From NCBI GenBank assembly GCA_900114405.1, contig FOSY01000001.1:1-64000 (forward strand): DNA of 64,000 nt. The letters are read 5' to 3'. The notes beneath the pieces were generated by a model that was not told the DNA's origin, did not search any database, and was given only the letters and a program-made list of their open reading frames with translations. Shown one piece after another: positions 7,208-59,521 of this stretch. Both the position numbers and the translations under genes were made by a program. Positions within the stretch are counted from its first letter, which is position 1; each line of letters opens with the position of its first letter. The DNA is from Lachnospiraceae bacterium KH1T2. Its GTDB lineage: Bacteria; Bacillota; Clostridia; Lachnospirales; Lachnospiraceae.

Positions 7208-8392
7208 TCAATTGCCTGATCTTGAAGCTGCGTCTTCAATTGAAAGCTTAGCAGCTGTTGCCTTCATGTCGTCCAGACTCATATTGGAAATATTTACAAG
7301 CTCTTCAGCTGTATATGGAAGTGCATTTACGAAATACTTCTCATAATCTGCATAATCTTCAGCAGATGAAACGTAAAGATAAGGGAAATCTACATTCTCA
7401 AATTTTCCTGAGAAATCTTTATAATTGCCCTTGATAGCATTGTAAACCATCATGAAGGCAAAAAGTGGATCACAATAGTGTCCGCCGGACTCGCCTGCCA
7501 TTGAACCATTTCCAAGTCTCTCTCCAAGGTCTGGAAGGAAGTCAGTTGAAACTATATCGATATCCTGTGTCTTTCCAGCTCTTTCTACAGCTGCGATAGC
7601 TCCCTGAAGAGGATCTCCGCCGCCGCCTGCCGGGATGAGTGCATCGAGGTTAGGGTCAGCTGACATAAGTGCTTCTGCAGCCTTTGATCCGCCTTCTGAT
7701 GATGTACCTGCATACTGTGGCTCTGAAAGCTTTGCCTGATCATCAGGGTGCTCAGCATTCCACTTTTCTACGCCGGCTTTATAGCCTTCCCAACGGCCAA
7801 GCCATGTAGCATCCCCCTGCTCCCAGCCGATAAGACCTATATCTCTGTCACCTTTTTCAAGGAGGATATTTACAAGCTTCTCACCATTTTCAGGTTCATT
7901 TTCGTGCACTGCTCCAATGTAATATGGTGAATCTGTAGCAGCCTGATAAATGTCAGGATTGTCTGTTTCACTAATTATTCTGAAGAACTGAGCAAGATAA
8001 ACTTTATTATCGTTACATGTTTTAATCGCTGAGGTCATCTCTGTATCTGATGAGTTACAGATTATGATTCCCTGACATCCCGCTGCCGCAAGCTGCTCTA
8101 CTGATGCTGTAACCTTCTCGGATACATGTCCCTGGTCAACATACTGTATATCGACATCAAGTGCCTTTGCTGCCTCATCAAGAATAAGTTTACACTGTGA
8201 ACCAAGTACATCTGTTGAACTCCAAATAGAAACACCGATCTTTATCTTTCCATCTGTTGTCTCTGCACCGGCAGCTGCTTCACTTCCGCTCGCTGCACCT
8301 GTACCCGTGTTTGATGCTGCACTTCCACAGCCTGCCAATGTAGTAACTGACATTGCTGCACAAAGGATGATACTTACGATCTTCTTTTTCAT
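7208..8392 (-). CDS. Sugar-type ABC transporter substrate-binding lipoprotein
   Basis: A 394-residue lipoprotein that should deliver a sugar-like ligand to the adjacent importer. The ATG at 8392 is chosen because it starts a clean signal peptide, MKKKIVSIILCAAM, with the lipobox LAGC (Cys22); a longer frame from 8443 adds an implausible leader. A Ser/Gly/Ala linker follows. The mature part reads as a type 1 periplasmic-binding fold (IKIGVSIWSST, GIIICNSSDTEM, IGLIGWEQGDATW, DALIPAGGGGDP), as in RbsB and RhaS-like proteins. It is the first gene of the importer operon. A two-component system with its own binding protein lies upstream and probably controls it. Confidence 0.88.
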   Translation of the reverse strand: MKKKIVSIILCAAMSVTTLAGCGSAASNTGTGAASGSEAAAGAETTDGKIKIGVSIWSSTDVLGSQCKLILDEAAKALDVDIQYVDQGHVSEKVTASVEQLAAAGCQGIIICNSSDTEMTSAIKTCNDNKVYLAQFFRIISETDNPDIYQAATDSPYYIGAVHENEPENGEKLVNILLEKGDRDIGLIGWEQGDATWLGRWEGYKAGVEKWNAEHPDDQAKLSEPQYAGTSSEGGSKAAEALMSADPNLDALIPAGGGGDPLQGAIAAVERAGKTQDIDIVSTDFLPDLGERLGNGSMAGESGGHYCDPLFAFMMVYNAIKGNYKDFSGKFENVDFPYLYVSSAEDYADYEKYFVNALPYTAEELVNISNMSLDDMKATAAKLSIEDAASRSGN

Positions 8393-8534
8393 ATAGTACT
8401 GCTCCCTTCTACCTTCTCTGCTTGACTTTACCGTTCCAAGCAATTGTTTTTGTTTAAATTCATTTTAACTTTGAGACAGTACTTTTAGTATGGAGAATTT
8501 TCTGAATTTTGGTAATTTTTTCATATCATATAAC

Positions 8535-8584
8535 GAAAAAAATCCGAAGCCGGCGAAAGAATTTCGAAGAAACCGACTTCGGAT
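8535..8584 (-). terminator. Intrinsic terminator of the hairpinned transcript
   Basis: A 12-bp stem (8542-8553 with 8573-8584, one G-U pair in the minus-strand RNA) is followed on the minus strand by six to seven U (complement of 8535-8541). It lies 143 bp before the binding-protein start and could end a small RNA or attenuate the importer operon. Confidence 0.85.
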
Positions 8585-8784
8585 ACCCAGATATGAACCG
8601 CCTTTTGCGGCCTGAGCGCGGATTCAGATATATCCGCAATATATCAAAAAATTGCTTATTGTCTTTTTTATGTGGCAAAACAAAATCCCAAAAATCATCC
8701 TGCCACAATTTATAATTATAAAAAAGAATGGAAACTAACTGCGAATGCAGTCACAATGATTTGTCAGCAGATTTAACTGACAAC
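8535..8784 (-). ncRNA. Candidate structured RNA or attenuated leader, about 250 nt
   Basis: From a consensus promoter (8791-8819) to an intrinsic terminator (8535-8584), the minus strand carries a string of separate hairpins: 8763-8781 (GTCAG/CTGAC), 8738-8751 (ACTGC/GCAGT), 8671-8707 (7-bp perfect TGTGGCA/TGCCACA), 8618-8637 (GCGGAT/ATCCGC), 8598-8610 (CCGC/GCGG) and then the terminator. No convincing coding frame fits; the 60-codon frame inside it needs a TTG start and has no ribosome-binding site. It may be an independent small RNA or a leader controlling the sugar importer that starts at 8392. I do not recognise a known riboswitch. Confidence 0.6.
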
Positions 8785-8790
8785 GATATT

Positions 8791-8819
8791 ATATTACATC
8801 GATGAACATTATTTGTCAA
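8791..8819 (-). promoter_or_regulatory. Sigma-A type promoter
   Basis: Minus-strand TTGACA (8814-8819), 17-bp spacer, TAATAT (8791-8796). Transcription would begin near 8784 and enter the hairpin-rich region. Confidence 0.8.
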
Positions 8820-8837
8820 CACTTTTTGTATACAATT

Positions 8838-8867
8838 TTAAAAAATTTGCGGAGCCGTAACTCCGCA
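8838..8867 (-). terminator. Terminator of the two-component operon
   Basis: Perfect 7-bp stem TGCGGAG/CTCCGCA (8848-8854 with 8861-8867), then on the minus strand AAATTTTTT. It separates the response-regulator operon from the promoter at 8791-8819. Confidence 0.85.
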
Positions 8868-8960
8868 TACTTAAACTTTTACGATCATCTTATTTTTTTC
8901 ATAAACTGAATTTTGTGTATCGGAAAATCTAAAAAATAATTAACTATATGAAATAAAATT

Positions 8961-9004
8961 ATTGTATAGTAAACGACAGATTCATTTGCTTCTTACTATA
9001 ATTC
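8961..9004. repeat. Palindromic repeat, degenerate copy
   Basis: Left arm contains TATAGTAAACGACA and right arm CTTACTATAAT. It overlaps the 3' end of the response-regulator gene. The same core occurs twice between groES and groEL (14895-15006), so it is a copy of a short dispersed palindrome. Confidence 0.6.
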
Positions 9005-9739
9005 CTTACGATATTTACTCGGTGAGATGCCCTCTACCTTCTTAAAGACCTTTGTAAAATAGAAATAGTCTGTATAACCTGCCATTTCAGCTACTTCCTG
9101 AATCGAAATCATCGGATTTTTAAGCAGTTCCTTTGCTTTCTGTATCCTAAGCGATGTCACGTAGTTTGAGAAAGTCATAGAAAGCTTTTCTTTAAGCTGT
9201 GTGCTGAGTGTTGCCGCACTCATTCCAAACTCTTCCGCAAGATCTGTAAGATTGATTTCTTTTGTATAGTTCGCTCTTATACGTTTTATTACACGATCCA
9301 CATCCGTTGCATTTTCTTCATGGATCACCTCAGCCTCCTGTCGAGCTTCCTCCTCTGAAAGTTCCGGCTCCAGTTCTTTTTGGAGCTTATCGATGAGACT
9401 CTCTAATTCTTCCTGATGCACAGGCTTCACAAGATAATCATACGCATGACCGCTTATAGCTTCTTTCGCATAGCTGAAATCCGCATATCCGGAAACAATT
9501 ACCACCCTGCTTTCAGGGCTTTCATTTCCTATATCATGCAGCAGATCAAGACCATTTTCCCCTGGCATTCTGATATCTGTAAAAACAATATCAGGCTTTA
9601 GGCTTCCTATTTCCTCCTTAGCAGTAAGTCCATTATTAGCCGTACCTACAACCTTCACAGGAAATCCTGTTTTCTCAAGCTGCTTTTTCAGTCCTAAAAC
9701 TACCCATACTTCATCATCTGCAATATATGCTGTGATCAT
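8996..9739 (-). CDS. Response regulator, AraC-type DNA-binding (YesN-like)
   Basis: A 247-residue regulator. Residues 1-120 are a receiver domain with the acidic pair D8-D9, the phosphoacceptor D55 in the strand VFTDIRMPG, the switch serine in VIVSGY, and K in YLVKPV. Residues about 150-247 carry two helix-turn-helix units of the AraC family, ending with the typical EVAEMAGYTDYFYFTKVFKK and GISPSKYR signature. It begins 9 bp after its partner kinase gene. YesN-type regulators usually activate a neighbouring carbohydrate uptake or degradation operon, so the importer at 3656-8392 is the likely target. Confidence 0.93.
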   Translation of the reverse strand: MITAYIADDEVWVVLGLKKQLEKTGFPVKVVGTANNGLTAKEEIGSLKPDIVFTDIRMPGENGLDLLHDIGNESPESRVVIVSGYADFSYAKEAISGHAYDYLVKPVHQEELESLIDKLQKELEPELSEEEARQEAEVIHEENATDVDRVIKRIRANYTKEINLTDLAEEFGMSAATLSTQLKEKLSMTFSNYVTSLRIQKAKELLKNPMISIQEVAEMAGYTDYFYFTKVFKKVEGISPSKYRKEL

Positions 9740-21854: not shown

Positions 21855-24800
21855 TCAATAATTCACATAAAGCTCATTTCTGCCTTTACCGGATACTCCG
21901 GAAATATTTATTGTCATATCACGTGTTATATTGGTAATGGTATAACTCTCGCCATTATTTAGATGACGATTTGATACAGTGCTATTAACATATAGCTTTC
22001 TGTCTTTTCCATTCCATGTAAATGACCATGATCCTCCTTCTCTTACGGTTGCATCGCTGGCTGCTACAGTTCCTGTTCCACCAAGAGCACCTACAGATAC
22101 GTGTACATGATAATACTTAGCAAAATTCATCTTACACGTCGCTCTGTCAGAATCCGGAACGCTGTCGATACTCTTACCTTCAAATACAAAGCCTGCTCTT
22201 TGAGGTGAACCGACATTGATCACATGACCGATATTATACCAACCTGTAGTATCTGCTCCATTCGTAGGAACTGCACCATTCCAATCGATCACCAGGTAAC
22301 ACTGCGCCCTCTTTGCTGTCATTGCCTTCTCTGCCGGTGCTGTCACAGTAATGGAAATACTCTGCTTTTTCTGTCCATTTTCCATATAATAGTGTCTCAC
22401 ATCACTCCATTCTGCTTCACCGGTGTAAGTCACTTTAGTTCCAAGTTTGTACCAGCCTGAGCCTGTGGTTTTCTTTACTCCAACGCTTCCTTTAACTATA
22501 AGCTCTGCTTCTGTCGCATTGATTACCTGTATTTTAGGTGCATTTCCAATGTGCGCTGTCTTAACATCCGCAGTTCGATATCCTTTTACATACGCTAAAC
22601 ACTCAACTTTTACGTCACTATTAAACGCATAATATCCGCTGCCAGCTGTTTCTTTTACGCCTGCACCATTAGCAACTGTCAGATATGCATGTGTCGCATC
22701 AGGACTTATAACCTTATCTTCTTCACCCATTGTCAAAGAAAATGTCTTTGTTTTTGTTCCATTAGCGTCAAAGGCATAGCCATCTGCACAAGTAGCCGTG
22801 TAGGTTATCTTAGTTCCGTACTTGAAAGTTTCTGCAATACTGCCATTATTCTTATGATATTTGATACCTGCTCCAAAACTTTCTTTACTAAACTCTACAG
22901 CACTTATACCTGTTCCCTTTGTGACCGTAAGTTGCCTATAAGCATCTACATACACCGGATAAAGTGTTCTCTGATTCTCATCATAGAAATTAACATTAGA
23001 AACAGCCACACTGTCTGCAACTTCAGCCGTATTGGTAACATTAGCAATCTCATTCATACCAAGAATGTCTCCATTACCTACATTATTTTTATGCAGCATC
23101 TGACCGTTGAATTTCTGACCGTCTACGCTAAGCACACCTTTTGTATCATAAACTTTACCTGCGATATCTTTATTTCGTGACCACGCAACCTGATCGCAGC
23201 CTGTTTTATGAAAAACTGTATTTGGCTTTGTCGTAAAGCTTCTGTCAAAAGTGATATCCTGTGTTACATTATTCCCCGTAGTAGATATACCTTTCGCGTA
23301 AGTTATCCTGTAATCATTCGGAAGATAGTTTCCTATGATTACTCCATCACGATTCTTCGCAAAGGTGACTTTTGTTTTATGGCTTTTCTGGTCTACAGTC
23401 GCCATTACAAGTCCTGTGCTAAACCATGAATCAGCGAAATGATAACCATATTTAAGCGGCTTATCGATCTCAGAGATAATTGCTCCGCTCGTTTTCCCAG
23501 TATCCGTATCAACACTTCTAAACGTCTGTATTTTCCCGGTTTCTTTGCTTACAGATTCATATGTAACATATTTTTCAACCGGAATGTATTTCTTATCAGT
23601 TCCCTGTGTAAATACTGTAAGCCACATATTTTCATGAGCTACAGGTACATTATCGTATACAGCTTTTATATTGATATTTCCATATGATCCATGTAAAAGT
23701 ACTGTTGGCTCAGAAATTTTATTTTTACCAGACTTTCCTCTTTTAGGAACAGCTCTCTTAAACCCTGTTCCTTTAGGCTCTACTGAAGCTTCCCAATAAA
23801 GGAATCTGCCATATCTGCCCTCTTCAACAGTTTTAATGCAATCTGTAGGCAGGATATAATCCGCATCCTCTATTGTATAAGTTCTCTTAACCTTTCCCTG
23901 CTCGTCTGATTTTGAAGTGACCGAGCTTGTTATTGTATATTCTACAGGCTGCCACATAGCATAAAGGTCGATAGTCATTCCATTTTCTGTAGACTCTCTT
24001 CCGGGAACAATACTTCCTGCCTTATATGAAGTTCCTTTGAGGTCAGCTCTTGTGTTCCAGCCTACAAATTTATAACCTGGGAGGATTGCAGATTCTGAAG
24101 CATCAAGTGATGCAAATTTTACCTGCTTTTCAGGATTAGACTGATTGTCACTATCAACAACCGTGTCATTCAGTCCTAAATTGTCAGGCAAGGAGGCACT
24201 CCCGACGAACGCCTTTGATGCGTCCGCCGCAGAAGTTATACTCTCCGTTCCTTTATGATATGTATAAGTAGTTTTCTTTGCTTTCCACACAGCTTTAAGA
24301 ACGATGCTGCCATCTCCATTCACCGTGATATCATTTGTGAAATCGTCTCCATCAGACCATCTGTCAGAAGAACCTGTTCTCTTCCATTCGACAAATTCAT
24401 ATCCCTGTCTCTTAAATGTAACTTTAGGGAGGCGGACCGTATCTCCATATTTCACAGTGATAACGTCATTAAGCATTCCACCGCTTGTATCAACAGCATC
24501 AGTTCCGTCAAAGGTGACTTTTAGAATATTCGGGCTCCACTGTGCATGAAGTGTAGTGACTTTTCCCTGTCTTCCCATATTTTCAAGGCTCTTTGACTCT
24601 CCTGCAGAAAAGACCTTCCCCGTGCCATCAGCATTCAGGTTCCACTCCTTACCCTTAAGCGCACTAAATCCGTTTTTCTTAAAACCGACCGTCGGGATCA
24701 CTACTTTTTCTCTGCTCGTGTACTCTACTGCATCCATCGCACCAAGACCGCCGTTGCCATCAAAAAATACAAGGAATGCCTCTTCCGAAGACCTCCATGC

Positions 24801-27800
24801 CGCATAAAGAATAGTATCTTTATCAAACTTATCTGCAGCATTATACCTTGTCATATCATCAGCATAAAGCCATGCTGTAAAGTAATATCCTTCATAAACC
24901 GGTACAGGTGCTTTGACCGTATGCGATTTTTCATCTGCTTTACGTGCATATATCGTTCCATGTTTATCATCAAAATAAACCATTATCGGGTATTCCCTGC
25001 CCGGCTTTGGGAGTATCACATGCTTGTGGTCAGGATCATTGTCATTATCATACCAGCCTGCTTCAAGGACAATATCCTTTGTTATGACATCCGAATCTTT
25101 ATGCTTGCCGCCTTCTGTATCATACCATCCGGCAAATTCATAATTTTTCCCTTCTACAGTCGGCGTTGCTATAGAGCCAAGTTCTACAGGCTTTTCCGGC
25201 TCAGTTGTGATTGTCACATATCTTCTGCCATCTATCTTTCCAATATTTGCATCAAGAACGACTGCATAATAGTTTGCTCTTAAAACACTTGAGCCTTCGA
25301 ACCACTTCGCCTGCAGTGTAACATCACTATTTATCGGCATTGTAAAGTCAAAGATCTCAGGTGATACTTCCCCATCCTCATTGACTTCCTGCCATCCGCC
25401 AAAGGTATGTCCTTTGTATTCCGGTATCCATGCAGATGCTTTTTTCCCTTTATTGATCTTCTGTACTTCCGGTTTCTCACCATTGCCAGGTATAAGAGTA
25501 ACAGTATACTCAGACGCATTATCACTTCTATCAAACCACTGTGCATAAAATATCTCAGAACTCTGGAATATTCTATTTTCTGAATATTTCCCATTATTTG
25601 AGTCCATCCAGTACCGGAACTCGTGCTCTTTCCACTCACCTGCATCCGGAGCCTTTACCGCGCTGCCCTTTTTAACTATTCTGTGATATATAGTTCCATG
25701 CATATTATCAAAGAACACTATAAATGAGCCATCATTAAATACCGGTCCATTTCCATTTTCATCATACCATCCGGCTTTTATAGAAAGGTCATCTGTCAGA
25801 ACATCATCTTCCTTGATCTTTGTTCCATCTGAGTAATACCATCCGGCAAATTCATAACCCGCATGTTCACTGTCTGCGACTGGTACTGCATTGATTGAGA
25901 TTTTTTCATTATCTTTGATATACTTTACAACCGATCTTGTACCTGTTTCTTCGAAGGTACCACATCCGGCATCGATATATACCTTGTGTTCTGTATCTCC
26001 ATCTTTTATCCAGTGCGGAGTAAGCGACAGATTTTTCTTAACCGGACGTTCCCAGTCATAGAGAAATTCTCCATCTGTCCATCCTCCATTTGAATAACCT
26101 TTCCTTGTTGTATCCGGATCAGGGATATTTACTCTATATCCATCCTTTACCTTCTGAGGATTTGGTGTAACTTCAGTCCCACCGTCAACGTCGAATGTTA
26201 CAAGTCTCATTCCGACGAGCTTATCCGAATTCCATACAGCATAAAGAAAAGCGTCATTTTCAAAAGTATCTCTTTCACTATAAACTCTATTATCAGAGTA
26301 ACGCCAACTGTCAAACGAAAAGTCTCTTCTTGATACACTCGGCGCACTTACAGTCTTATCAATATTTGTCTTTATCCCGAAAATAGATCCATGCATATCG
26401 TTAAAGAATACCATCGGTCTTATTCCGCTTAGTTCATATCCATCCGGATCAATCCAGTGCGCAATGAAGATAGTATCTCTCTTAATAGCATCTGAGCTGT
26501 CATATTTTCTGCCATCTGCAGTATACCATCCCTTAAATTTGCAGCCCTCTCTTGAGGGGATCAGCTTGTCGAGGTTAAGAGCTCCACCAGTGCAAACATC
26601 TGTTACCTTATACTCAGTTCCATCGTCAAACTTACCGCCTGCAGCATCTAATGCTACGATATGACGATATAACGGATTAACATTTTTAGTATCATCCCTG
26701 TCAGATTTTCTACTCTCTGAATCATCTTTTCCACCATCGTTATCCGATTTTTCTGTGCTGTTTTCTGACGTTGACTCTTTTACATATCCATAAGGATTAT
26801 TTCTGTCATCTCCACCATCCTGGATATCATCATTGTCTGCGTCTAACAGCCATACAGCTTCAAGTGTGATATTTTTCTTTAATGGTTCCGTAAAATTATA
26901 ATTATATCCATCAAGATTCCATCCACCAAACTTATAACCATCTCTCACCGGATCTTCAGGTCGTACTGCATTTTCACTGATATTGATAACCTGTGATGCA
27001 ATGCTTTCAGAACCATCTGCGGCTCTTCCGCCGTTTAAGTTAAATACTACATCATATGCAGTTTCTCCAAATACTGCTTCTACCACACCTGCACCCGAAT
27101 ACTTCTCCGGAATATATGTCGCAGGTGATCCATCCAAGAGCCAGTACAGGAATATGTGATTTCTATACTGAATATCAGAATACAACGGTGTATCCTTGTT
27201 AAGTTCGATAACTTCCTTATTTCTCGGATCATTCATAACTCCGTCCGGAAGCTTGAATTTTATCGTCTTTGTTGCAAGCCACTCTTCTTTATAATCACAG
27301 TTGTCCGCATACCAGAGGGTAGTGTTTTCATCTGCTCTCTGAGGTTTAATGAACTCATTCTTTTCTTCTACCGCAGCAGCTTTTTCGGAAACTGTCACTT
27401 TTATGATACGAGTTTTTCTATCATCCAGCTTTATCTTGATCTGCGCTTCGCCGGGCTGAATACCATAGATAACACCATACTGGTCTATAACCGCTACCTG
27501 CTTTTTAAGCTGCTTCTTATCTGCTGCCCAAAAACCATGCTGGATCGTTCCCACATCCAACTTTCTGGCTTCGCCAGCCTTTAGTGTTACCATATTTGTT
27601 CTCTTTAGACTAGTTTCTGAAACATGTACCGGAAGATCAGCAGTACGCTTTTCTCCGCTCTTTAACTCAAATTCATAATGTAAAATACAATCTCCGGCAT
27701 TTTTTCCATATACTTTTCTGCCAAAGATCTGCGCAACATCCTTTGGATTTACTGATGCATACTTTTCAAGCTGATTTCCCGAAAAGGAAGCATCCGATGT

Positions 27801-28430
27801 AACTGTCACCTTTACTGTCTTCTTCTTTGCATTCTTAGGCATTGGAAGGCTTACACGTCTGCTGCTTTTAACCAAATACAGCACTGATGCATTTAACGCG
27901 CCGTCCGTTTTTGGCTTTTTAACAGTTATTTTAATCTTTGCCGTTTTAACTTTTTTGCCTTCATTATAGTAGCCATATACTGTAGCTGTTCCTACCTTCA
28001 ATGCTGTCGCTGTTCCACTCGGAGTAACTTCTACAATTTCAGGGCGAGAACTCATAAATGATATACATCTGACATCTACTGAAGTGCTCAGCTCTACAGA
28101 CCGTCCAAGCTCAATATTTGTCCTTTTCTCCGAAAATGTATTTTTATCACCATTTCCATTATTTACGAGACCTGCTACTGCATAATTCTGATCATTCAGG
28201 TATCCCAGTCCATACATGGATTTATGAGATGAGCCAATCCTGACAAAGTCATTTTTTTCATTATCAGACATCGACGGTATTTCTTTATTGTTCGATACGC
28301 TGCCCGCAGACACTTTTGAATTTCCTGACATCGTTACGTGCTCTGCCATTGCCGGAGATACCGATGTCGTCGCTATAGCAGCTGACAACATAAGTGTTAT
28401 CATTCTGTTTCTTGATTTCTTATCTATCAT
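21855..28430 (-). CDS. Giant secreted protein with Listeria-Bacteroides (InlB B-type) repeats
   Basis: A 2191-residue extracellular protein. Residues 1-29 are a signal peptide ending SVSPAMA. A Big_2-like Ig domain follows (SFMSSRPEIVEVTPSG, LKVGTATVYGYY, about 103-170). From about 460 to 1500 there are about twelve B-repeat modules, each ending with patterns such as GYKFGGWNLDG, GYEFAGWYYSDG and NYEFAGWYDTEG, and then an AxW strand. Three modules share VFFDxxHGTIY, showing a longer period. An acidic, low-complexity linker lies near 545-590. The last 450 residues carry other repeats (AGSGYYAFNSDV, TGSGWYKLGTKVTYTG). There is no LPXTG signal or C-terminal membrane helix, so the anchoring mode is unclear. 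It is cotranscribed with a small membrane protein 20 bp upstream. Adhesion is plausible but inferred. Confidence 0.88.
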   Translation of the reverse strand: MIDKKSRNRMITLMLSAAIATTSVSPAMAEHVTMSGNSKVSAGSVSNNKEIPSMSDNEKNDFVRIGSSHKSMYGLGYLNDQNYAVAGLVNNGNGDKNTFSEKRTNIELGRSVELSTSVDVRCISFMSSRPEIVEVTPSGTATALKVGTATVYGYYNEGKKVKTAKIKITVKKPKTDGALNASVLYLVKSSRRVSLPMPKNAKKKTVKVTVTSDASFSGNQLEKYASVNPKDVAQIFGRKVYGKNAGDCILHYEFELKSGEKRTADLPVHVSETSLKRTNMVTLKAGEARKLDVGTIQHGFWAADKKQLKKQVAVIDQYGVIYGIQPGEAQIKIKLDDRKTRIIKVTVSEKAAAVEEKNEFIKPQRADENTTLWYADNCDYKEEWLATKTIKFKLPDGVMNDPRNKEVIELNKDTPLYSDIQYRNHIFLYWLLDGSPATYIPEKYSGAGVVEAVFGETAYDVVFNLNGGRAADGSESIASQVINISENAVRPEDPVRDGYKFGGWNLDGYNYNFTEPLKKNITLEAVWLLDADNDDIQDGGDDRNNPYGYVKESTSENSTEKSDNDGGKDDSESRKSDRDDTKNVNPLYRHIVALDAAGGKFDDGTEYKVTDVCTGGALNLDKLIPSREGCKFKGWYTADGRKYDSSDAIKRDTIFIAHWIDPDGYELSGIRPMVFFNDMHGSIFGIKTNIDKTVSAPSVSRRDFSFDSWRYSDNRVYSERDTFENDAFLYAVWNSDKLVGMRLVTFDVDGGTEVTPNPQKVKDGYRVNIPDPDTTRKGYSNGGWTDGEFLYDWERPVKKNLSLTPHWIKDGDTEHKVYIDAGCGTFEETGTRSVVKYIKDNEKISINAVPVADSEHAGYEFAGWYYSDGTKIKEDDVLTDDLSIKAGWYDENGNGPVFNDGSFIVFFDNMHGTIYHRIVKKGSAVKAPDAGEWKEHEFRYWMDSNNGKYSENRIFQSSEIFYAQWFDRSDNASEYTVTLIPGNGEKPEVQKINKGKKASAWIPEYKGHTFGGWQEVNEDGEVSPEIFDFTMPINSDVTLQAKWFEGSSVLRANYYAVVLDANIGKIDGRRYVTITTEPEKPVELGSIATPTVEGKNYEFAGWYDTEGGKHKDSDVITKDIVLEAGWYDNDNDPDHKHVILPKPGREYPIMVYFDDKHGTIYARKADEKSHTVKAPVPVYEGYYFTAWLYADDMTRYNAADKFDKDTILYAAWRSSEEAFLVFFDGNGGLGAMDAVEYTSREKVVIPTVGFKKNGFSALKGKEWNLNADGTGKVFSAGESKSLENMGRQGKVTTLHAQWSPNILKVTFDGTDAVDTSGGMLNDVITVKYGDTVRLPKVTFKRQGYEFVEWKRTGSSDRWSDGDDFTNDITVNGDGSIVLKAVWKAKKTTYTYHKGTESITSAADASKAFVGSASLPDNLGLNDTVVDSDNQSNPEKQVKFASLDASESAILPGYKFVGWNTRADLKGTSYKAGSIVPGRESTENGMTIDLYAMWQPVEYTITSSVTSKSDEQGKVKRTYTIEDADYILPTDCIKTVEEGRYGRFLYWEASVEPKGTGFKRAVPKRGKSGKNKISEPTVLLHGSYGNINIKAVYDNVPVAHENMWLTVFTQGTDKKYIPVEKYVTYESVSKETGKIQTFRSVDTDTGKTSGAIISEIDKPLKYGYHFADSWFSTGLVMATVDQKSHKTKVTFAKNRDGVIIGNYLPNDYRITYAKGISTTGNNVTQDITFDRSFTTKPNTVFHKTGCDQVAWSRNKDIAGKVYDTKGVLSVDGQKFNGQMLHKNNVGNGDILGMNEIANVTNTAEVADSVAVSNVNFYDENQRTLYPVYVDAYRQLTVTKGTGISAVEFSKESFGAGIKYHKNNGSIAETFKYGTKITYTATCADGYAFDANGTKTKTFSLTMGEEDKVISPDATHAYLTVANGAGVKETAGSGYYAFNSDVKVECLAYVKGYRTADVKTAHIGNAPKIQVINATEAELIVKGSVGVKKTTGSGWYKLGTKVTYTGEAEWSDVRHYYMENGQKKQSISITVTAPAEKAMTAKRAQCYLVIDWNGAVPTNGADTTGWYNIGHVINVGSPQRAGFVFEGKSIDSVPDSDRATCKMNFAKYYHVHVSVGALGGTGTVAASDATVREGGSWSFTWNGKDRKLYVNSTVSNRHLNNGESYTITNITRDMTINISGVSGKGRNELYVNY

Positions 28431-28450: not shown

Positions 28451-28849
28451 TCAACCAAATATCTTAAGTTCACCAATAATAGGAAGAGGTTTCATTTTTC
28501 CCTGGCAAGCATAGACCAATGCCAAGATCCAAGCGACAAACACGATTATCGAACACAGCCACCCGGCTACCGGCACCATGATGCATGCCATATGGCAAAG
28601 TGTTAATATAAGTGACTGACTCAATTGAAGTTTAAGAAATTCTGATCTTTCACGTCCATTACTTAATATCAGAGCAAGAACAAAGCCTATCAGTGTAATA
28701 TACGCGATAATACCAAGTGTCTTATCACTTACATCTGATTTCTGAACACCTTCGTCAAACTCCATCTCTACATTAATTTCCCCGCCGCAATGATGACAGA
28801 TCTTTGCAGGATGATAAATTTCCTTACCACAGTGTATGCATTTTTCCAT
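28451..28849 (-). CDS. Zinc-ribbon membrane protein, DUF4870/Tic20-like
   Basis: A 132-residue protein. The N terminus is a zinc ribbon (CIHCGKEIYHPAKICHHCGG, residues 4-23). After an acidic linker come three hydrophobic segments (about 45-65, 78-95, 98-117) with the surrounding pattern GIIAYITLIGFVLALIL and SEFLKLQLSQSLIL, typical of the DUF4870/Tic20-like small membrane proteins. Its function is not known. It is the first gene of an operon with the 2191-residue secreted protein, so a link with surface display or export can be proposed. Transcription comes from the promoter at 29003-29031 through a hairpinned leader. Confidence 0.75.
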   Translation of the reverse strand: MEKCIHCGKEIYHPAKICHHCGGEINVEMEFDEGVQKSDVSDKTLGIIAYITLIGFVLALILSNGRERSEFLKLQLSQSLILTLCHMACIMVPVAGWLCSIIVFVAWILALVYACQGKMKPLPIIGELKIFG

Positions 28850-28996
28850 TAAACTAAATCTCCTTTGAAATATAAAATTAGAATGTTTTATGCAGCACTC
28901 CGGCTAAAGAACCTTATGCGACTGCATAATTAAAAATAATTGGGAATACACAGTTACGAACGTAACTGCCGAGATCAGGCAAGAACGCCTGATGCG
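28850..28996 (-). promoter_or_regulatory. Hairpin-rich 5' leader of the giant-protein operon
   Basis: About 150 nt between promoter and first gene contain, in order on the minus strand, ATCAGGC/GCCTGAT, CAGTTAC/GTAACTG and a wider stem TTATGCAG/CTGCATAA. No known riboswitch consensus is seen. AAAGGAG lies before the ATG. Confidence 0.5.
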
Positions 28997-29002
28997 AAAA
29001 CA

Positions 29003-29031
29003 ATAATAAACTTGTATACACTTTTTGTCAA
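29003..29031 (-). promoter_or_regulatory. Promoter of the giant-protein operon
   Basis: Minus-strand TTGACA (29026-29031), 17-bp spacer, TATTAT (29003-29008). Confidence 0.82.
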
Positions 29032-59347: not shown

Positions 59348-59418
59348 AGGGGAATCATACAATGGCAGTATGCCGGTCTCCAAAACCGCTCATGGGGGTT
59401 CGAATCCCTCTTCCCCTG
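59348..59418 (+). tRNA. tRNA-Trp (CCA), copy 1
   Basis: A 71-nt cloverleaf with a 7-bp acceptor (AGGGGAA/TTCCCCT), D stem ATAC/GTAT, anticodon loop CTCCAAA with anticodon CCA, T arm GGGGG-TTCGAAT-CCCTC and discriminator G. The 3' CCA is not encoded. The anticodon stem has a C-C mismatch at its outermost pair. Confidence 0.95.
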
Positions 59419-59450: not shown

Positions 59451-59521
59451 AGGGGAATCATACAATGGCAGTATGCCGGTCTCCAAAACCGCTCATGGGG
59501 GTTCGAATCCCTCTTCCCCTG
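59451..59521 (+). tRNA. tRNA-Trp (CCA), copy 2
   Basis: Identical to the copy at 59348-59418 over all 71 nt, 32 bp downstream in the same orientation. A second tRNA-Trp gene is a recent duplication by its sequence identity. Confidence 0.95.

Follow-up and report, generated by a model that had tools for sequence, protein, structure and literature searches.

A structured RNA upstream of a sugar importer in a Lachnospiraceae bacterium, a predicted leader orphaned from a nuclease-like gene

In Lachnospiraceae bacterium KH1T2, a predicted transcript of about 250 nt lies between a two-component operon and a sugar importer, on the same strand as the importer. Which gene does this RNA serve? An earlier note, made from the sequence alone, had described it as a possible new structured RNA, or as an attenuated leader that might control the importer by read-through. 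We analyzed the whole 64,000-nt stretch of contig FOSY01000001.1 that contains it (hereafter, the window). On balance, we favor the reading that the unit likely makes a free RNA of this length, which we predict once served as the leader for a nuclease-like gene that is no longer present behind it; it probably does not serve the importer as a leader.

The RNA unit and its conservation in a sister species

The RNA and the features described below are encoded on the minus strand, unless otherwise noted. Its promoter (8791..8819) consists of TTGACA (8819-8814), a 17-nt spacer, and TAATAT (8796-8791), as the earlier note had it, and matched 10 of 12 consensus letters in a promoter scan. The region contains 9 promoter-like sites, versus 5.7 ± 1.9 in shuffled sequences, so the match by itself is unremarkable; the promoter is, however, kept in the sister species described below. 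From a presumed start at 8784, the RNA (8533..8784) folds into five hairpins and an intrinsic terminator with an energy of −81.4 kcal/mol (z = −5.85), and none of 200 shuffled sequences was equally low. Hairpin 1 (8761..8783) and hairpin 2 (8736..8753) are followed by a conserved U-rich linker, UUUCCAYUCUUUUUUAUAAUUAU (8709..8735), and then by hairpin 3 (8671..8707), hairpin 4 (8618..8637), and hairpin 5 (8596..8612). Hairpins 1, 3, 4, and 5 were assigned from the fold together with the pairs shared by two species, the linker from the alignment, and hairpin 2 from the comparison of six leaders given below. The terminator (8536..8584) has a stem at 8584-8542 with an energy of −20.6 kcal/mol and a T-run extending to 8536; our consensus terminator scanner was limited to loops of 3-8 and so reported just the inner portion. 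The promoter, the hairpins, and the terminator lie where they had been proposed originally.

In a search of Rfam 15, the window RNA matched no family at the gathering score and came near none at a lax threshold, consistent with the earlier failure to recognize a known riboswitch. Similarly, no family was found at the gathering cut-off for the homologous RNA of the sister species (in L114) or for a related leader described below (in L135). A literature search found no publication on this RNA.

We then compared the window with the importer locus of a sister species (locus L004; genome G460, MAG RUI249). L004 carries the entire unit, from promoter to terminator, with 76% identity over 304 nt (blastn, E = 1e-49). 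In the RNA, 193 of 251 alignment columns are identical (77%, with gaps scored as differences), versus 428 of 767 four-fold sites (56%) in five neighboring genes, among which the identity spans 58/146 (kinase) to 127/183 (binding protein). The terminator is nearly invariant, with 46 of 47 columns identical, and the U-rich linker, conserved in 25 of 31 columns, stays single-stranded when the two species are folded as a consensus. Each of the 52 predicted pairs is retained in the two sequences, two of them through double changes. Both compensatory changes fall in hairpin 4; of the two stems that the earlier note had named as places to look for them, this one provided support and that of hairpin 3 contained no double change. 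Pairing fell to 28-49% when the partners were slid against each other; a shuffle control gave 128/500 and is uninformative on two sequences. A small conserved peptide inside the RNA was ruled out by indels between the species: the alignment gaps before the terminator, of 1, 1, 1, 1, 4, 1, 2, and 1 columns, leave no conserved reading frame, in line with the original impression that the RNA holds no plausible protein. With every predicted pair retained in the sister species, no Rfam family, and covariation of hairpin 2 in six leaders (see below), the description as a new structured RNA is well supported.

Outside this species pair, the RNA was hardly detectable. With the importer's binding protein, we retrieved 80 importer loci, the best of 162. 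In these, a model built from both RNAs (R1) found a strong match in L004 alone, and blastn found, besides L004, only matches of 15-20 nt at E = 0.8. When 61 and 397 genomes were searched by blastn, only matches of about 20-56 nt appeared outside the window's own genome (G000), including one of 41 nt in G010, and we took these as background. Across 48 genomes of the genus, R1 had matches in three: both sister species and G009 (18.5 bits); the G009 match overlaps a coding sequence and was dropped. A match in importer locus L057 (18.9 bits) gained no support from the second model, R2, described below. As evidence for a mobile RNA in phages, the search returned only a 26-nt stretch common to four Mycobacterium phage records, within an HNH or hypothetical gene at E = 0.07, which we took as chance. 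A search of plasmids for the RNA gave no match, nor did IMG/VR when searched with one pattern for hairpin 3.

The importer and its own control region

The first gene of the importer (7208..8392) encodes a sugar-type solute-binding protein (PF13407), and upstream of the RNA lies a gene for an AraC-type response regulator (8996..9739; PF00072, PF12833). The orientation of the RNA and its intact terminator, about 140 nt ahead of the importer start, would suit a leader from which read-through controls the importer. Several results argue against such control. The importer has a conserved site and a −10 of its own between the RNA terminator and its first gene, contrary to the earlier note, which saw no clearly better promoter there. 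This site is a direct repeat (8487..8521), in which GAAAATaTTACCAA is followed by AAAATtTTCCATg, and then, at a similar distance, by the likely −10 element, TAAAAT (8462..8467), of a promoter belonging to the importer; L006 and L008 are among the relatives in which site and −10 are equally spaced.

To follow the direct repeat across the 80 loci, we counted TTACCAA alone, in the 260 nt before the importer start. The motif, located at 8515 in the window, was found in 35 of 37 relatives with an adjacent regulator gene (the exceptions being L062 and L063), versus 1 of 43 loci without one; the latter is L004, in which the contig ends before the regulator. Shuffled sequences gave an expectation of 0.8 per group. 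This linkage between TTACCAA and regulator adjacency suggests that the response regulator binds the direct repeat. The repeat with its −10 is a likely regulon site and could be used to name the targets of the two-component system.

The spacing of the locus also sets the window apart: the gap between regulator and importer is 133-390 nt in the 37 relatives, versus 607 nt in the window. In L004, the RNA and the importer are separated by a 265-aa ORF and an array of repeats. Among the other 79 importer loci the RNA was not found, although four of them hold less than 700 nt upstream and could hide it. Finally, no anti-terminator pairing better than chance was detected. When the 3′ arm of the terminator was blocked in folding, the other hairpins were unchanged and no convincing anti-terminator appeared. 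In both species the common best partner of the terminator's 5′ arm is the loop of hairpin 3 (UUUGGG), at about −7 kcal/mol; 152 of 200 shuffles paired equally well, and the terminator itself is at −20. A built-in switch is thus unlikely, and fixed partial termination or a bound protein would be likelier. Taken together, these results make it very improbable that the RNA is an attenuated leader of the importer.

A nuclease-like gene, the history of the locus, and related leaders

The ORF behind the RNA in L004 encodes a nuclease-like protein. Its ATG lies 13 nt past the T-run of the terminator, with a ribosome site within this gap and no room for another promoter. The protein (265 aa) matches the PADLOC profile PDC-S68 at positions 1089-1218 of 1221 (E = 1e-31), that is, in the C-terminal domain only and not over the whole profile. 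In Pfam, just a Vsr match under its cut-off was found. An AlphaFold model of the protein had a mean pLDDT of 89.8 and a pTM of 0.61; the search of PDB structures with it returned weak matches only, restriction-endonuclease-like folds among them, and none at E ≤ 0.001. The family is large, with 1298 of 1830 candidate proteins at E ≤ 1e-10, and among the 120 relatives listed, those with a name are called 'hypothetical protein'. It occurs in 86 of 397 genomes of the bacterial family (E ≤ 1e-30) and in 19 of 48 genomes of the genus (E ≤ 1e-5). At E ≤ 1e-5, the genome of the window has one copy (Y2, on contig C15) and G460 has three (Y1, Y2, and Y3); Y2 of the window's genome and Y3 likewise match the C-terminal domain of PDC-S68 alone.

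Tandem repeats often flank the loci of this family (L116-L145 and L149-L177), and many of these repeats measure about 50-105 bp and enclose a short palindrome such as TATGCC...GGCATA. A tandem array with units of 30-120 bp was present in 37 of 59 loci examined (for instance at L004:1369-1639), with a different repeat sequence in most cases. These repeats may be a separate feature.

A structured leader is not a trait of the family as a whole. The mean z was −0.54 in 35 family leaders versus −0.85 in 87 controls, and a terminator was found within 150 nt in 1 of the 35 versus 2 of the 87. We therefore rejected a general structured leader for the family; since its leaders are no more structured than controls, the link between leader and gene is known solely from this species pair.

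We then examined how the window and the sister species differ around the RNA. In L004, an open frame of 79 codons (gene X) runs from the contig edge and ends ahead of the RNA. The window keeps a scrap of gene X (8871..8912), the last 13 codons and the stop (NSVYEKNKMIVKV), which matches the C-terminal end of the L004 ORF and has a deletion scar at its 5′ side. Between gene X and the RNA promoter lies a terminator-like hairpin (8848..8867), detected by the consensus scan and conserved in L004. The regulator has an ortholog in G460 with 94% identity; behind it, the similarity of the window to G460 lasts as far as CGATACACAAAAT, where the tail of gene X takes over. The two G460 contigs, with the regulator and with the RNA, are unjoined in the data. 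The simplest reading of these sequences is a deletion in the window's lineage, in which gene X was once present and the RNA was left behind. On the G460 contig with the regulator (C25, in L146), genes judged by eye to encode an amino-acid-type binding protein and a permease lie right behind the regulator, up to the contig edge; a search without positive control found no relative of this binding protein in the window's genome at E ≤ 1e-10. On the other side of the RNA, the sequence shared by the window and L004 stops after CGTT, behind the terminator, and the window shows no trace of a nuclease-like gene there. Because no remnant is left, the nuclease-like gene may instead be a later arrival in L004.

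These features also suit a different explanation, in which the RNA is a self-standing accessory small RNA acting in trans on mRNAs, and the nuclease-like gene stands behind it in L004 by chance. The RNA has its own promoter and terminator in both species, a terminator-like hairpin belonging to gene X precedes the RNA promoter, and the window keeps the RNA without the nuclease-like gene; the well-conserved, unpaired linker would fit such a role as well. However, the ribosome site of the L004 gene lies immediately behind the terminator, and hairpin 2 (in G460 also the U-rich linker) recurs before other loci of the nuclease-like family, as described next. We regard a self-standing small RNA as a serious alternative, though clearly less probable than an orphaned leader.

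A second leader of the same kind was identified in the window with the models R1 and R2 (28850..28996), behind a promoter with TTGACA at 29031-29026 and TATTAT at 29008-29003. It precedes an ORF (28451..28849) with zinc-ribbon matches below curated cut-offs and, by eye, a membrane part. G460 has the equivalent leader (in L135). Scores of R1 for these two leaders, 19.0 bits in the window (28992-28845) and 20.7 bits in L135, are by themselves at background level, since L057 scores 18.9 bits. The zinc-ribbon/membrane ORFs behind the two leaders are related and share their gene order. In G460 the zinc-ribbon ORF is directly followed by Y3; the order in the window is a kinase-like gene, the leader, the zinc-ribbon ORF, a 2191-aa protein, and a valS-like gene (names by eye). 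The 2191-aa protein (21855-28430) is repeat-rich with a signal-like start, by eye, and occupies the slot that holds Y3 in G460. Farther along the window, at 59348-59418 and 59451-59521, a pair of equally scoring tRNA genes is separated by 32 bases.

Sequence similarity between the leaders is clearest in G460. The L135 leader shares with the RNA the linker TTTCCACTCTTTTT-TATA-ATTAT, and none of 1000 shuffles equaled this similarity, whether against L004 or the window. Similarly, the leader of Y2 in G460 shares hairpin 2 with the RNA (0 of 2000 shuffles against L004, 16 of 2000 against the window). The corresponding comparisons within the window's own genome were not significant: 458 and 374 of 1000 shuffles for the window's zinc-ribbon leader, and, for its Y2 leader, 1867 of 2000 against the window and 105 of 2000 against L004.

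We aligned six leaders, which represent three loci in two sister species and not six independent cases. In this alignment, hairpin 2 is paired in 42 of 42 cells, and 5 of its 7 pairs are changed on both sides. In 500 shuffles, neither the percentage of paired cells nor the covariation score was ever reached; 36 of 500 matched the count of doubly changed pairs and 258 of 500 the count of pair types. Hairpin 1 can form before hairpin 2, at the same place, in all six leaders; that of Y2 in G460 forms in a 48-nt fold and is absent from an 81-nt fold. A hairpin 2 pattern, drawn from the same leaders, found with one mismatch four places in the 48 genomes, namely both RNAs and both Y2 leaders. A model built from the six leaders (R2) gave three matches per genome in this pair, all at 41.9-49.1 bits, which are the leaders it was trained on; this first look scored 150 of 854 candidates in the window's genome and 150 of 450 in G460, so there may be further copies. 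R2 was run on 40 of the 48 genomes of the genus; in the 38 outside this pair no score exceeded 23 bits, with weak matches of 19-23 bits in six other genomes. In 64 retrieved loci it found the known leaders only, followed by 12.1 bits, and the best score in 85 further loci was 23 bits.

Leaders precede all four nuclease-like genes found in the two genomes (one in the window's genome, three in G460), three of them directly and one as the second gene behind the zinc-ribbon ORF. The two leaders without a nuclease-like gene are both in the window (8784-8533 and 28996-28850). The arrangement could instead reflect a generic 5′ stabilizer or regulator site of the clade, present before several genes and unconnected to the nuclease-like family. 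Indeed, the gene directly behind the second leader is the zinc-ribbon/membrane ORF and not nuclease-like. The promoters offer a further point: a palindrome, TTGTATACAA (8826..8835, either strand), immediately precedes the −35 of the RNA promoter and is a possible operator that L004 has at the same place. Within the 64 kb, TGTATACA occurs at two sites only, 8827 and 29013, both at leader promoters, the second copy (29013-29020) lying within the promoter spacer of the zinc-ribbon leader. It is found at the same places in L004 and L135 and is absent from the Y2 promoters. Its presence at both leader promoters fits a common regulator, as a generic site might have. Against this, R2 detected just three strong copies in each genome among the candidates scored, and all three in G460 (from 150 of 450 candidates) serve nuclease-like genes. 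We therefore consider a generic 5′ site unlikely.

Several of the points above count against an orphaned leader, among them that R2 was trained on its own leaders, that the leaders come from three loci in two species, and that the similarities within the window's own genome are not significant. With these weighed, an orphaned leader of a nuclease-like gene remains the reading that we favor for the RNA.

Known systems and a possible mechanism

The closest likeness is to RCd22-AbiF of Clostridioides difficile, in which a short RNA and a read-through mRNA are made from one start site (PMC12373285). The system comprises a Sigma-A type promoter, a structured RNA, a Rho-independent terminator, a ribosome site, and a defense-like gene. 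The same succession of promoter, RNA, terminator, and gene without a second promoter is found here in L004 only, the gene being missing in the window. Two differences stand out: the abiF RNA motif (RF03085) was not found by Rfam in the window RNA, the L004 RNA, or the zinc-ribbon leader, and the protein is PD-(D/E)XK-like, not AbiF. Our best reading, by analogy, is that the leader may work in a layout like that of RCd22-AbiF.

Type III toxin-antitoxin systems such as ToxIN and CptIN also have an RNA, then a terminator, then a gene behind one promoter. The order is the same here; however, the window RNA has no direct repeats of at least 12 nt, the L004 RNA has one imperfect 12-nt pair, and the L004 protein has no ToxN-type match. 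PDC-S68, a PADLOC candidate defense family, resembles the L004 protein in its C-terminal domain and differs in its long N-terminal part, which the stand-alone protein of 265 aa lacks. Attenuators and riboswitches share with L004 a long structured leader with a terminator just before the gene, and differ in that Rfam gave no riboswitch match and that no anti-terminator pairing exceeded chance.

In the mechanism that we propose, most transcripts would end at the terminator, and the nuclease-like gene would be read by leak-through only. Hairpins 1 and 2 may be bound by a protein that adjusts the leak-through, and the nuclease itself could be this protein. In the window's lineage, one deletion would have taken gene X and a second the nuclease-like gene, while the RNA stayed. 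The leftover RNA may be idle, or may act in trans on the remaining gene Y2 (G000:C15) via the shared hairpins. More tentatively, and by analogy with RCd22 and AbiF, the leader could belong to an RNA-guarded nuclease module, in which binding by the two-hairpin leader would restrain a nuclease of the PDC-S68 type; the window would then have kept the guard RNA after losing one nuclease, and this RNA would now be a trans antidote or sponge for the other copy. We consider this module doubtful, though conceivable.

If the favored reading is true, a structured leader outside Rfam would be tied to a large family of nuclease-like proteins, the tested members of which match a candidate defense family. 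It would also mean that a leader RNA can outlast its gene and end up before an unrelated operon. The position of such an orphaned leader alone would then point to a false target, in this case the importer.
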